Part shown: one piece after another, positions 23,195 through 27,313 of the stretch
Layout: every line of letters starts with the position of its first letter
Numbering within the stretch: the stretch's first letter is position 1
Made by a program: the position numbers and the translations under genes
Notes under the pieces: model-generated
The model's database searches: none
The model's input: the letters and a program-made list of their open reading frames with translations, nothing else
Told to the model about the DNA's origin: nothing
Source: Leptonema illini DSM 21528
GTDB taxonomy: Bacteria > Spirochaetota > Leptospiria > Leptospirales > Leptonemataceae
Direction: 5' to 3'
DNA: 64,000 bases
Assembly: GCF_000243335.1 (NCBI RefSeq)
Contig: NZ_JH597773.1
Span: 2,101,550-2,165,549 of the forward strand

Positions 23195-24781
23195 ATGAAA
23201 CGTGCCTCGCTTGCTCTACTGGCCTTTGCCCTGATCCTCGGAACAATCCTCATTGCTTCGACGATTACGCGCAAGAGCCGCGAAACTCCTGCACTGGCGG
23301 TGCTCAGAGCGAAATACTCCGAACCGCATAAAAAATCCGTCGACCATTCGAAGTTCCCGCAGCTGCAGCGCGCCTTTGCCGCTCCACAGGAGATTACGGC
23401 CGCCTGCATCGGCTGTCATAACGAGCGCCATAAAGAGGTGATGGCCTCCTCTCACTGGAACTGGGGGCGTGAAGAATACGTCGCCGGTAAGGGAATCCGA
23501 TTTGTCGGTAAAAAGAACATACTGAACAACTTCTGTATCGGCATTCAAACGAACGAAGAGAGCTGCAACAAATGCCATACCGGTTACGGATGGCGCGACG
23601 ATAAGTTCAACTTCAACGATCCGCGCAACGTCGACTGTCTGGCCTGCCACGACAACAGCAATACCTATGTGAAGGCCTCGGGCGGAGCCGGTATGCCCGA
23701 TCCCTCCGTAAACCTGAACGTCGTCGCTCAGAGCGTCGGCCGACCGGAGCGCGCGAACTGCGGCACCTGCCATTTCTTTGGTGGCGGCGGTAATAACGTG
23801 AAGCACGGCGACCTCGACTCCTCGCTCTTTGATCCCACCCGCGCCGTCGACGTGCACATGGCGTCAGAGGGAGCGAATCTACAATGCGTCGACTGCCATG
23901 TAACGGAAAATCATAAGATGAAGGGCAAGGTGTACTCCCTTTCTTCTATGAATAGAGACCGCTCGACCTGTGAATCCTGCCACACAGAGACACCGCATGA
24001 AAGCGACGTGATCAACGAACATACGCTGAAGGTGGCCTGCCAGAGCTGCCATATTCCCGTGTATGCGAAGGTTAACCCGACGAAGCTTTCGTGGGATTGG
24101 TCGACGGCCGGCAAATTGAAAGACGGTAAGCCTTACACGGAGCATGCCGAAGACGGCACCGATTCTTATATGTCGATTAAAGGATCGTTCACCTGGGGCA
24201 AAGAGATCGAACCTGAATACGTCTGGTTCAACGGCACGGCGTCGCATTATCTGGTCGGCGATAAGATCGACCCGGATTCCGTCGTTAAAGTGAACGAACT
24301 GCACGGCAGCTACGATGATCCCGACGCCAAGATCATTCCCGTCAAAATCCACCGCGGAAATCAGATCTACGATAAAGAGCATCTGTATCTGATACAGCCG
24401 AAGACCTATTCCGGGCATTCCGGTGACGGCGGTTTCTGGAAGGAATTCAACTGGAATCGAGCCGCCGAGCTGGGTATGAAAGATATCGGCCTGCCCTACA
24501 GCGGACAGTACGGCTTCGTAAAAACCGAGATGTACTGGCCGATCAACCACATGGTTTCGACGAAAGAGAAGACGGTGAACTGCACCGAGTGTCATACTCG
24601 CGACAACAGCCGGCTGCAACATTTAACCGACTTTTATCTACCGGGCCGGGATCGCAGCACGCCCGTCGAATTTCTTGGCAAGCTGATGGTATTCCTCACG
24701 TTAGCCGGAGTGCTTCTGCACGGAGCGCTGCGCATCGTCGTCGCAAAAAGGCATGAACGCGAAAAAGGAGACAGATCATGA
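23195..24781 (+). CDS. Octaheme c-type cytochrome, tetrathionate reductase (OTR) family
   Basis: 528 aa with an N-terminal signal or anchor (LALLAFALILGTILIAST) and a C-terminal membrane helix near 494-515 (VFLTLAGVLLHGALRIVV). Eight CXXCH motifs: Cys 71, 124, 148, 189, 231, 259, 282 and 463. Eight hemes and the spacing fit octaheme tetrathionate reductase-type cytochromes, periplasmic enzymes that reduce tetrathionate, nitrite or hydroxylamine in vitro. The C-terminal anchor and overlapping cytochrome b gene (4 bp) suggest electrons come from the quinone pool. The substrate cannot be decided from sequence; the neighbouring sulfur transporters favour a sulfur oxyanion. Confidence 0.92.
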   Translation: MKRASLALLAFALILGTILIASTITRKSRETPALAVLRAKYSEPHKKSVDHSKFPQLQRAFAAPQEITAACIGCHNERHKEVMASSHWNWGREEYVAGKGIRFVGKKNILNNFCIGIQTNEESCNKCHTGYGWRDDKFNFNDPRNVDCLACHDNSNTYVKASGGAGMPDPSVNLNVVAQSVGRPERANCGTCHFFGGGGNNVKHGDLDSSLFDPTRAVDVHMASEGANLQCVDCHVTENHKMKGKVYSLSSMNRDRSTCESCHTETPHESDVINEHTLKVACQSCHIPVYAKVNPTKLSWDWSTAGKLKDGKPYTEHAEDGTDSYMSIKGSFTWGKEIEPEYVWFNGTASHYLVGDKIDPDSVVKVNELHGSYDDPDAKIIPVKIHRGNQIYDKEHLYLIQPKTYSGHSGDGGFWKEFNWNRAAELGMKDIGLPYSGQYGFVKTEMYWPINHMVSTKEKTVNCTECHTRDNSRLQHLTDFYLPGRDRSTPVEFLGKLMVFLTLAGVLLHGALRIVVAKRHEREKGDRS

Positions 24782-25461
24782 GCGGCAAAACGAAATCAAG
24801 GCTCGTTCTTGTCTACGGTCGGTTTGAAAGATTCTGGCACTGGACACAGGCCGCTCTCATCATCTTTCTTACCCTGACCGGATTCGAGATCCACGGATCG
24901 TTCACCTTCTTCGGCTACGAAAACGCGGTGAATTATCACAGCGTCGCCGCCATCCTGTTCCTGGTGCTCATTTCGTTTGCCATATTCTGGCATTTCAGCA
25001 CCGGAGAATGGAAGCAGTATGTGCCGACGCTGAGCATGCTGAAGGCGCAGGCCGAATACTACGTCGTCGGCATCTTCCGGGAGGCCCCGCATCCGACGAA
25101 GAAGACGGTGCTTTCCAAGCTCAATCCGCTGCAGAAGATGGTCTATGCCGGCCTGAAGCTGCTCGTTATTCCTGGCATGGTCACGACGGGACTTCTGTAT
25201 ATGTTCTATCGTTATCCGCAGAAAAACGAGGTGATGCTTCTGAACGTCGACGGGCTGCGCACGATCGCCGTGCTGCATACGCTCGGCGCCTTCGCCCTCA
25301 TCGCCTTCATCATTGCCCATATCTACCTGATCACGACGGGCGATACGATTACGTCGAATCTCAAGGCGATGATCACCGGATACGAAGAGCTTGAAGAAGA
25401 AACGGAATCCGACTCGAAACGAGAAGAGAGCCCCAAAAAAAACAAAAAGGGTCGCAGCTAA
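24778..25461 (+). CDS. Membrane cytochrome b, quinol-oxidising partner
   Basis: 227 aa with four main membrane helices. Candidate heme ligands: His 21 (FWHWTQA), His 54 (NYHSVAA), His 72, His 167 (VLHTLGAF) and His 181 (IAHIYLITTG), the pattern of the cytochrome b561/FdnI/PhsC group. It would pass electrons from quinol to the octaheme protein encoded immediately upstream. The C-terminal tail is charged (EELEEETESDSKREE). It overlaps the octaheme gene by 4 bp. Confidence 0.9.
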   Translation: MSGKTKSRLVLVYGRFERFWHWTQAALIIFLTLTGFEIHGSFTFFGYENAVNYHSVAAILFLVLISFAIFWHFSTGEWKQYVPTLSMLKAQAEYYVVGIFREAPHPTKKTVLSKLNPLQKMVYAGLKLLVIPGMVTTGLLYMFYRYPQKNEVMLLNVDGLRTIAVLHTLGAFALIAFIIAHIYLITTGDTITSNLKAMITGYEELEEETESDSKREESPKKNKKGRS

Positions 25462-25485
25462 CAGGAGAACATTCAGGAGAATCGT

Positions 25486-26004
25486 ATGGGAACTCAATCG
25501 AAATACATGAATCCGTATCTGGCCGGATTCTTTCTCGGCCTGGTCGTTCTGGCGACGGTCTTCTTGACCGGCCGCGGCCTCGGAGCCAGCGGCGCGATTA
25601 AAAGCGCCGTCGTCGCCAGCGTCGATATCGTATCGCCCGAGCATGTGCAGAACCGACCGTTCTTTCAGCATGCCGTGGAATCAAGCGACGGTCATCCGAT
25701 GAAGACATGGCTTGTCTTTGAGGTGCTCGGCGTCATCGCCGGCGGCTTCATCTCAGGCCTGATCTCGAATCGCCTGAAATTCACGACAGAAAAAGGGCCC
25801 GGCATCAGCGACCGTAAGCGATGGGTCTTTGCCGTCATCGGCGGCGCTCTTTTCGGCATCGGCGCCCAGCTCGCCCGCGGATGTACGTCCGGCGCCGCGT
25901 TAACAGGCATGGCCGTGCTCTCGACGGCGGGATTCCTAACGACGATGGCGATCTTCGGCGGCGGATATATATTCGCCTACTTCGCCCGCCGTCTGTGGAT
26001 TTAG
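25486..26004 (+). CDS. YeeE/YedE family sulfur transporter, first half-size gene
   Basis: 172 aa with four to five membrane helices. The family motif with conserved Cys is at AQLARGCTSGAALTG (Cys 133). YeeE/YedE (TsuA-type) proteins carry thiosulfate or other sulfur species. Start ATG 25486 has AGGAG nine bases upstream. A charged loop at about 100-112 divides the protein. It pairs with the next gene, 23 bp downstream. Confidence 0.88.
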   Translation: MGTQSKYMNPYLAGFFLGLVVLATVFLTGRGLGASGAIKSAVVASVDIVSPEHVQNRPFFQHAVESSDGHPMKTWLVFEVLGVIAGGFISGLISNRLKFTTEKGPGISDRKRWVFAVIGGALFGIGAQLARGCTSGAALTGMAVLSTAGFLTTMAIFGGGYIFAYFARRLWI

Positions 26005-26027
26005 AACCGACTCTTTAGGAGGATTGT

Positions 26028-27209
26028 ATGGGTCCCTTTGTTCCTGAATTCATATCAAACGAACTGAATCTGATCGTCGCCTTCGTCGTCGGTATCGCCT
26101 TCGGATTCGTGCTCGAACAGGCCGGCTTCTCGTCTTCGCGTCGACTTGCCGGACAATTCTACGGTTACGACTTCACCGTGCTTCGCGTCTTCTTCACGGC
26201 CGGCGTTACGGCCATGACAGGCGTCCTGATCCTTGGCTGGGCCGGATTGCTCGATCTCGATCTGATCTATGTGAACCCGACCTGGCTCTGGCCGGCCGTC
26301 GTCGGCGGATTGATCATGGGCCTGGGCTTCGTGCTTGGCGGCTACTGTCCGGGCACAAGCGTCTGCGCCGTCGCCATCGGTAAGATCGATGCCATGTGGT
26401 TCGTGGGTGGAGGCTTTCTTGGAATCCTTCTGTATGGGGAGTTCTTCTCGTTATACAGCGAGTTTCATGAATCAAGCGCTCTCGGGCCGCTTAAGATCTA
26501 CGAAACGCTTGGCATGCCTGCCGGCGTCTTCGCCCTGCTTCTGATCGTCGTTGCCGTCGCCGCCTTCATTGGAACAAGCTATCTTGAAAAACGCATCAGC
26601 AAAGAGGCTCCGGCCTTCCGTTTTCCGGTTAAAGAGCATCGCTATGCGATGGCCGCTCTGCTTGTAGCCGGCGTCTTGCTGCTCTTCCTGCCCGATCGCA
26701 AGACAGGCACGATGGAGATGGTGCAGAAGACCGAATATAAAGCGAAGCATCCGGTGCAGACGATGGACGTCGATGAATTCGCCTTTCGACTGCTTGATAG
26801 AGATCCGAAGCTGGCCATCATCGACCTGCGCTCCTCTGACGCCTTTAAAGAATCACCGCTGCCGGGCTCCGTATCGGCGACGCTGCGCGATCTATTCGGC
26901 AAAGAGCTCCTTCCTCTTCTGTCACGGCGCCATGTCGTTAAGGTCTTCCTTGCCGACGATATCGAAAAGGCCGAGGCCGCCTATCGCATCGCCGATCGAC
27001 TGGGATTCGAAAACATACGCGTCCTCGACGGCGGCATGAAAGGGTTCGAAGCGGTGATACTGAAACACGAAGGCATCGAAAAGGCAAACGCCGACACAAA
27101 ACGCTTTCGCGAAAGGGCCGGCACGCAGCTGCCCGTCATGATGACGGAATACAAGGCGAAGGCCAATCGCAAGCCCAAGGTTCAGAAGAAGATCCAGGGG
27201 GGCTGCTAA
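26028..27209 (+). CDS. YeeE/YedE transporter fused to Cys-less rhodanese domain
   Basis: 393 aa. Residues 1-190 form the membrane YeeE/YedE part with the motif GGYCPGTSVCAVAIGK (Cys 107 and Cys 113). A further helix (about 206-222) leads to a rhodanese-like domain at about 243-350 (LAIIDLRSSDAF, RVLDGGMKGFE). At the active-site loop, where Cys is expected, the sequence reads KVFLADDIEKAEAA, with no Cys and no following Arg. The protein then has a basic tail and ends in GGC, a C-terminal cysteine. AGGAGG precedes the ATG. Last gene of the redox operon; probably hands imported sulfur to a periplasmic or membrane partner, by inference. Confidence 0.88.
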   Translation: MGPFVPEFISNELNLIVAFVVGIAFGFVLEQAGFSSSRRLAGQFYGYDFTVLRVFFTAGVTAMTGVLILGWAGLLDLDLIYVNPTWLWPAVVGGLIMGLGFVLGGYCPGTSVCAVAIGKIDAMWFVGGGFLGILLYGEFFSLYSEFHESSALGPLKIYETLGMPAGVFALLLIVVAVAAFIGTSYLEKRISKEAPAFRFPVKEHRYAMAALLVAGVLLLFLPDRKTGTMEMVQKTEYKAKHPVQTMDVDEFAFRLLDRDPKLAIIDLRSSDAFKESPLPGSVSATLRDLFGKELLPLLSRRHVVKVFLADDIEKAEAAYRIADRLGFENIRVLDGGMKGFEAVILKHEGIEKANADTKRFRERAGTQLPVMMTEYKAKANRKPKVQKKIQGGC

Positions 27210-27210
27210 A

Positions 27211-27299
27211 TCAGATGCGCACCTCAGCCCTCACCCCGCGGGTGGTGCTCTGTTGAATGGTTGAGCACCAGGCGGGGATTCGGGTGGGTGCGCATCTGA
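27211..27299 (+). terminator. Long palindrome after the redox operon
   Basis: TCAGATGCGCACC (27211-27223) pairs with GGTGCGCATCTGA (27287-27299), and GGTGCTC (27244-27250) pairs with GAGCACC (27263-27269) inside. It begins two bases after the YeeE-rhodanese stop codon. It may act as a terminator, although there is no T tract; its right part belongs to a 47-bp sequence repeated at 28861. Confidence 0.55.
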
Positions 27300-27313
27300 C
27301 GGGATTGGTTAGA
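27267..27313 (+). repeat. 47-bp direct repeat, copy 1
   Basis: Starts ACCAGGCGGGGATTCGGGTG and ends GGATTGGTTAGA; identical to 28861-28907. The last bases form GTTAGAC, and a third GTTAGAC occurs near 28947. Confidence 0.9.

Follow-up and report, generated by a model that had tools for sequence, protein, structure and literature searches.

An octaheme cytochrome operon of Leptonema illini with a split YeeE transporter and a candidate Gly-Gly-Cys sulfur carrier

Introduction

The OTR family of octaheme c-type cytochromes takes as its reference the protein of Shewanella oneidensis (SO4144; PDB 1SP3; TIGR04315). The physiological substrate of OTR is uncertain, that is, tetrathionate, nitrite and hydroxylamine all are reduced in vitro. 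Considered here is an OTR from a spirochaete, Leptonema illini 3055T, as encoded by a four-gene operon found within a 64,000-nucleotide stretch of contig NZ_JH597773.1 (hereafter, the window). L. illini is an aerobic, chemoorganotrophic spirochaete which lives on long-chain fatty acids (PMC3746420). The window OTR has in common with that of S. oneidensis its octaheme core, equivalents of Lys153 and Cys64, and a C-terminal cytochrome domain. It differs, however, in possessing a C-terminal membrane anchor, a dedicated cytochrome b, and an operon that includes as well a split YeeE transporter along with a rhodanese domain tailed with Gly-Gly-Cys (GGC).

Thiosulfate and polysulfide reductase systems of the PhsABC/PsrABC type, together with a periplasmic rhodanese such as Sud, are quinol-linked S-S reductases with a periplasmic rhodanese-type helper. 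Indeed, the same cassette of YeeE1, YeeE2 and tailed rhodanese is found behind PhsABC-like operons, though in the window OTR and cytochrome b stand in place of the molybdoenzyme, and the rhodanese lacks its catalytic cysteine. With SoxYZ, the likeness instead lies in the flexible C-terminal tail of a periplasmic protein, a tail which bears Gly-Gly-Cys, i.e., the GGCGG ‘swinging arm’, the cysteine of which carries the sulfur substrate (PMC6067878). The window protein nevertheless is without SoxY homology (no Pfam match to the SoxY domain, PF13501), is built upon a rhodanese scaffold, and belongs to a set in which the cysteine stands at, or very near to, the C-terminus. Relative to the SoxY arm, that is, the GGC is invariant but the two glycines which follow are absent.

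For the transporter, the likeness is to PmpA and PmpB of Serratia, a pair described with cysteines at the Cys293 and Cys91 positions (PMC11582611), and to YedE1E2 of Cupriavidus, a characterised split pair which raises uptake of zero-valent sulfur (PMC10812762). Both consist of two complementary halves with Cys293 and Cys91 equivalents. The window halves are longer, however (172 amino acids, and about 200 prior to fusion), with YeeE2 fused to the GGC-armed rhodanese and the pair linked to a respiratory reductase. SoxT/TsuA importers are of this same YeeE family, and it has been proposed that their uptake of sulfur is linked to a carrier in the periplasm (PMC11582611). SoxT/TsuA differ from the window pair in being full-length, with three conserved cysteines and cytoplasmic partners; full-length YeeE/TsuA transports thiosulfate (PMC11073785).

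The reading of the window operon developed below, to which we give an even chance, is of a quinol-driven periplasmic S-S reductase with its own GGC sulfur carrier and split sulfur transporter.

The operon

Four open reading frames (ORFs), all on the + strand, span exactly positions 23,195 to 27,209 of the window, with intergenic gaps of -4, 24 and 23 bases. A Shine-Dalgarno-like AGGAG precedes each internal gene, i.e., ribosome-binding sites are good. The products, in order, are OTR, cytochrome b, YeeE1, and YeeE2 fused to a rhodanese domain with GGC tail. An initial annotation, made from the sequence by itself, had described four tightly packed genes, and all four are indeed present, so placed and so spaced. 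Its inventory of them holds up in part: the two YeeE genes, as taken up below, are halves of one transporter, and the rhodanese domain and the C-terminal GGC of the second YeeE went unmentioned.

The rhodanese domain and its Gly-Gly-Cys tail

The fourth gene (26,028 to 27,209, + strand; 393 amino acids) encodes a PmpB-like N-terminal YeeE half (PF04143 positions 11 to 186), an extra transmembrane helix, the rhodanese domain (PF00581) and the tail, as also seen in a structural model. The rhodanese domain occupies residues 258 to 342 (26,799 to 27,053, + strand), its fold being modelled with a predicted local distance difference test (pLDDT) of 87 to 96 and matched by Foldseek to rhodaneses (prob 1.00). 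At the catalytic-cysteine column there is instead Ala309 (26,952 to 26,954), with alanine, serine or glycine found there in 41 of 41 relatives. Gly391-Gly392-Cys393 (27,198 to 27,206, + strand) is invariant across those 41, which come from several phyla, its conservation thus being 1.00 versus 0.38 to 0.43 across the preceding 45-residue linker, and it lies on a tail which is predicted to be disordered (residues 381 to 393; pLDDT <50). All 42 of 42 fused YeeE2::rhodanese proteins bear it. As the rhodanese cysteine has been lost in all 41 relatives, the terminal cysteine usually is the sole cysteine found outside of the membrane part. The charge is more positive before the last helix in 39 of 41 sequences, a pattern which, by the positive-inside rule, predicts a periplasmic location of rhodanese and tail, that is, on OTR's side of the membrane.

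Chance can be rejected as the origin of these tails. Of the 920 remaining ORFs in these loci, 29 end with GGC, consisting of 28 rhodaneses and one DUF302 protein, near OTR, as compared with 0 of the approximately 891 ORFs which are neither. Rejected as well is the tail as a general rhodanese trait, with 0 of 36 ordinary Bacteroidota rhodaneses ending in GGC; among the other rhodanese ORFs of the L. illini genome, too, none has the tail. Lipoprotein rhodaneses also can carry it, as can DUF302 proteins just upstream of OTR. The latter, with flexible linker, terminal GGC, and a position directly upstream of OTR, are seen in Beta- and Gammaproteobacteria at L127:9201-9746, L183:8624-9211, L185:8712-9257 and L188:4655-5206. 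No description of either the tail or the cassette was found in the literature searched, though a subscription paper could hold one.

By analogy with SoxY, the tail may serve as a carrier for sulfur. It might instead bind metal, or serve in assembly or anchoring, as terminal cysteine motifs can bind soft metals and a sulfur adduct on the GGC tail has not so far been seen. That we consider very unlikely, given that, in the reverse search described below, the tail turned up solely within sulfur-reductase operons, and that it sits on proteins of sulfurtransferase fold.

The octaheme cytochrome and its active site

The first gene (23,195 to 24,781, + strand) encodes an OTR of 528 amino acids with an N-terminal signal or anchor. 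Its score with TIGR04315 is 626 bits (curated cut-off, 375), alignment to 1SP3 is near full-length (E=3.1e-138), and eight CXXCH motifs are found at residues 71, 124, 148, 189, 231, 259, 282 and 463. Cytochrome c assembly proteins are present in the L. illini genome, making heme attachment feasible. A hydrophobic C-terminal helix, as judged by hydropathy, spans residues 494 to 512 (24,674 to 24,730, + strand), so that an octaheme of OTR type with a C-terminal membrane anchor, as had been annotated, is what is found. Within set A1, such an anchor is restricted to those OTR types which have a separate, short cytochrome b.

The Lys153 equivalent, as aligned with 1SP3, is Lys203 (codon 23,801 to 23,803, + strand), which is lysine in 95 of 95 homologues, and the Cys64 equivalent is Cys114 (codon 23,534 to 23,536, + strand), which is cysteine in 95 of 95 of the tree set. 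Lys153 is the lysine which ligates the active heme in the 2004 structure. By motif and alignment, then, the window protein qualifies as a true OTR-family member with both active-site equivalents kept, for which tetrathionate reductase activity is possible. Another spirochaete homologue, L048:766-2367, retains all eight hemes but is without the Cys64 and Lys153 equivalents, and probably has a different function.

Many OTRs of the Desulfobacterota-type sample contain one in-frame TGA, and in 10 of 10 of the TGA-bearing OTRs aligned (loci L202, L203, L207, L212, L213, L216, L219, L220, L222 and L224) this falls exactly on the Cys114 (i.e., Cys64) column. These ten genes thus probably encode selenocysteine (Sec) OTRs. 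A selenoproteome review lists a Sec-containing OTR with no motif stated (PMC13188914). Such cysteine-Sec exchange identifies Cys114 as a redox-active thiol or selenol, which fits S-S chemistry and favours sulfur chemistry over nitrite reduction.

That last point bears upon OTR as a nitrite or hydroxylamine reductase or detoxifier, with the YeeE genes simply unrelated neighbours. OTR reduces both compounds in vitro (Atkinson 2007, as cited in PMC11237559). In a few gammaproteobacteria, moreover, OTR-cytochrome b pairs have a neighbourhood of nitrogen type: L178:9240-10706 is an octaheme matching the HAO-like multiheme family PF13447 beside OTR-cytochrome b and a tetraheme, and L124 and L180 are similar as judged by size and heme count. 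Clustering of OTR homologues with nitrite or other pathways is what the initial annotation had held would count against a sulfur role, and such clustering exists, though outside of the window's clade. With Sec at the active-site cysteine, and with the YeeE and GGC linkages of the following section (44 and 66 of 90 loci, respectively), we view nitrite or hydroxylamine as the function here as highly improbable.

Conservation of the neighbourhood

Neighbours within six same-strand genes were scored for 90 OTR loci. The initial sample consisted of the 80 OTR loci nearest to the window OTR and hence is biased to close relatives; a gammaproteobacterial class and a Desulfobacterota group were sampled separately to offset that bias. 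Resulting counts are lower bounds, as other frames mask cytochrome b at L060 and L074, and some ORF starts are over-extended. So counted, at least 84 of the 90 loci have cytochrome b near OTR, 66 have a protein with a GGC tail, and 44 have the YeeE pair. The cluster is conserved to a degree that greatly exceeds chance, and the OTR-YeeE linkage, as initially noticed at this single locus, extends across phyla. Mapped onto the OTR tree, presence of YeeE requires at least six changes and that of GGC five, that is, these associations have been gained or lost repeatedly.

The order seen in the window, i.e., OTR, cytochrome b, YeeE1 and then YeeE2::rhodanese-GGC, is found in Bacteroidota, Ignavibacteriota, Acidobacteriota, Planctomycetota, LCP-89 and Fibrobacterota. 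A second arrangement, from Bacteroidota, is OTR, cytochrome b and a lipoprotein rhodanese with GGC, behind which tandem rhodaneses and a porin often are found, and a third, from some Beta- and Gammaproteobacteria, is DUF302-GGC, OTR and cytochrome b. In other spirochaetes cytochrome b and a heptaheme domain form a single protein, behind which comes the YeeE pair, its tail there being GGCG. In lucinid symbionts otr adjoins soxY-S3/soxZ (PMC11237559), which fits the same carrier logic as employing a different carrier. Upstream of OTR, next to window-type operons of relatives, there can be a MerR-type regulator with a cysteine-rich tail (L049:2024-2503 and similar), none of which was seen directly upstream of OTR in L. 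illini.

A cassette shared with PhsABC-like operons

A profile of the tailed rhodanese (A3) was also searched, ignoring neighbours, in 148 genomes from the phylum to which G393 belongs, and 20 loci were opened, hand-picked because the match reached the tail. As the profile was built partly from OTR-linked proteins, this reverse search is mildly circular. The YeeE pair is present in 20 of those 20 loci, while the upstream partner is a PhsA-like, iron-sulfur (FeS) and NrfD set in 12, and OTR-cytochrome b in seven, the one remaining locus being cut by a contig end. With either PhsABC-like proteins or OTR-cytochrome b ahead of the same cassette, the cassette is common to two unrelated quinol-linked sulfur reductases. 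The molybdoenzymes scored (L072, L094) have PhsA as best match yet fall under its cut-off, and many of the Phs-linked tailed rhodaneses end with EGC rather than GGC. Six-gene operons of PhsA-like, FeS, NrfD, YeeE1, YeeE2 and GGC- or EGC-tailed rhodanese are seen, in the Bacteroidota-type sample, at L312, L314-L322, L326 and L327.

This sharing bears upon the direction of electron flow. OTR might act oxidatively, conjugating the GGC arm with thiosulfate or sulfane sulfur and passing electrons to quinone via cytochrome b, much as SoxAX or TsdA do but by another fold. L. illini being an aerobe would suit such a direction, as would resemblance of GGC to the SoxY arm and the proximity of otr to soxYZ in sulfur oxidisers (PMC11237559). 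The cassette nevertheless follows PhsABC/PsrABC-like enzymes, characterised members of which are reductases, and no SoxY was found in the L. illini genome, in a search which had no positive control. Oxidative use consequently seems to us quite improbable.

The split transporter and cytochrome b

YeeE1 (25,486 to 26,004, + strand; 172 amino acids) resembles PmpA and represents the C-terminal half of a YeeE/YedE transporter, covering positions 175 to 310 of PF04143, as complements the 11 to 186 that are covered by YeeE2. On the basis of that complementary coverage, the two are halves of one split transporter of PmpAB type. The initial annotation of two YeeE/YedE transporters thus was correct as to family but not as to number. 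YeeE1 Cys133 (equivalent to StYeeE Cys293) is conserved in 52 of 52 sequences and YeeE2 Cys107 (equivalent to Cys91 of crystallised YeeE) in 41 of 41. At 172 and, with its added domain, 393 amino acids, the halves do not match the size of plain PmpAB (about 130 amino acids and four transmembrane helices each), and so they are better described as a PmpAB variant.

The cytochrome b (24,778 to 25,461, + strand) is of the diheme type (Ni_hydr_CYTB; PF01292, 102 bits), with His39, 54, 167 and 181 invariant in 86 of 86 homologues, as is expected given two b hemes. It scores 97.7 bits against the thiosulfate-reductase-specific, PhsC-like model PRK15006 (cut-off, 204), so that its identification is to the broad PF01292. 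Its having been annotated as quinol-oxidising is sound as to cytochrome b, with quinol oxidation presumed from the family. At L100 and L101, loci without GGC partners, a cytochrome b of about 440 amino acids beside OTR is fused to PAS domains (by Pfam in L101), and possibly is a redox sensor.

Taken at their simplest, these components might respire free tetrathionate to thiosulfate via OTR and cytochrome b, with the YeeE pair then importing thiosulfate for assimilation and the rhodanese and GGC serving as accessories. Shewanella OTR indeed reduces tetrathionate in vitro (Mowat 2004, as cited in PMC11237559), the complete OTR active site is retained, and thiosulfate is what full-length YeeE/TsuA moves (PMC11073785). 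This would, however, leave both the invariant GGC and the lost rhodanese cysteine unexplained, along with the presence of the same cassette behind PhsABC-like reductases. As for thiosulfate import, there is no yeeD or tusA gene within the cluster, the YeeE halves score 50 and 13 bits against the TsuA model NF052577 (cut-off, 400), and in alignment they have no counterpart to the third, cytoplasmic TsuA cysteine; YedE1E2, furthermore, moves zero-valent sulfur. We therefore consider it unlikely, though worth keeping in mind. Such a coupling is what was initially annotated, and the sulfur redox module there proposed gains from the conserved OTR-YeeE linkage, with free tetrathionate reduction and thiosulfate import possible but unproven.

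Proposed mechanism

Conservation of the Gly-Gly-Cys tail points instead to a substrate which is carrier-bound. With the S-S reductase proposed above, cytochrome b would oxidise menaquinol, and electrons would pass through membrane-anchored OTR to the active heme, on its Lys203 side, beside the redox thiol, Cys114. The substrate, at least in part, would be sulfur on the C-terminal GGC arm of the periplasmic rhodanese domain, held as Cys-S-S-, Cys-S-SO3- or Cys-S-S-SO3-, with free tetrathionate then being a small-molecule look-alike of what is arm-bound. OTR would cleave the S-S bond of sulfur so held, the arm carrying sulfur as does the GGCGG of SoxY, and YeeE1 and YeeE2, as one transporter situated beside the arm, would move sulfane sulfur or thiosulfate through the inner membrane. 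Arm loading, the reaction of OTR with the arm, redox direction and transported species are what we infer from these various comparisons.

Certain observations weigh against this. L. illini is described as an aerobe (PMC3746420), and conceivably could use the opposite redox direction. In Desulfobacterota and most of the gammaproteobacteria sampled, OTR-cytochrome b pairs mostly are bare, i.e., are without a nearby GGC partner, and the OTR family thus does not need one. The few gammaproteobacterial pairs which adjoin HAO-like multihemes and tetrahemes, as noted, provide a nitrogen context as well.

Origin in spirochaetes and flanking sequence

OTR above cut-off is found in 17 of 393 Spirochaetota genomes. 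The window OTR groups, on a quick tree with labels derived from metagenome-assembled genomes, with sequences from Bacteroidota, Ignavibacteriota and Acidobacteriota, in sets which have support (Shimodaira-Hasegawa-like approximate likelihood ratio test, SH-aLRT, 95 and 97), and is far from other full-length spirochaete OTRs. Given that grouping outside of its phylum, the cluster probably was acquired from outside of Spirochaetota. Its having been described as unusual in a spirochaete is apt in part; a YeeE-type cluster is present at five other spirochaete loci. Another genome of the same family (L040) has the rearranged order OTR, YeeE1, YeeE2 and cytochrome b.

Just 3' of the operon there is a palindromic, dispersed repeat (27,211 to 27,300, no strand assigned), with a fold of -59.7 kcal/mol (z, -5.9) and about 28 places in the genome. 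This may serve as a transcription terminator; it resembles elements of the repetitive extragenic palindromic (REP) or miniature inverted-repeat transposable element (MITE) type.

Implications

More broadly, and tentatively, i.e., with somewhat less than an even chance in our estimation, the tailed rhodanese could represent an unrecognised class of periplasmic carrier, one that is SoxY-arm-like yet has rhodanese or DUF302 as its scaffold, and which forms with split YeeE a portable cassette for OTR-cytochrome b and PhsABC-like molybdoenzymes. The OTR substrate in these lineages then would be carrier-bound sulfur. With a carrier arm beside OTR, and Sec at the active-site cysteine of relatives, action of OTR on sulfur bound to a protein cysteine is directly testable. 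If true, this likely would be a reductive counterpart to Sox carrier logic, and would explain as well why, in many uncultured bacteria, split YeeE genes are paired with operons for respiration.

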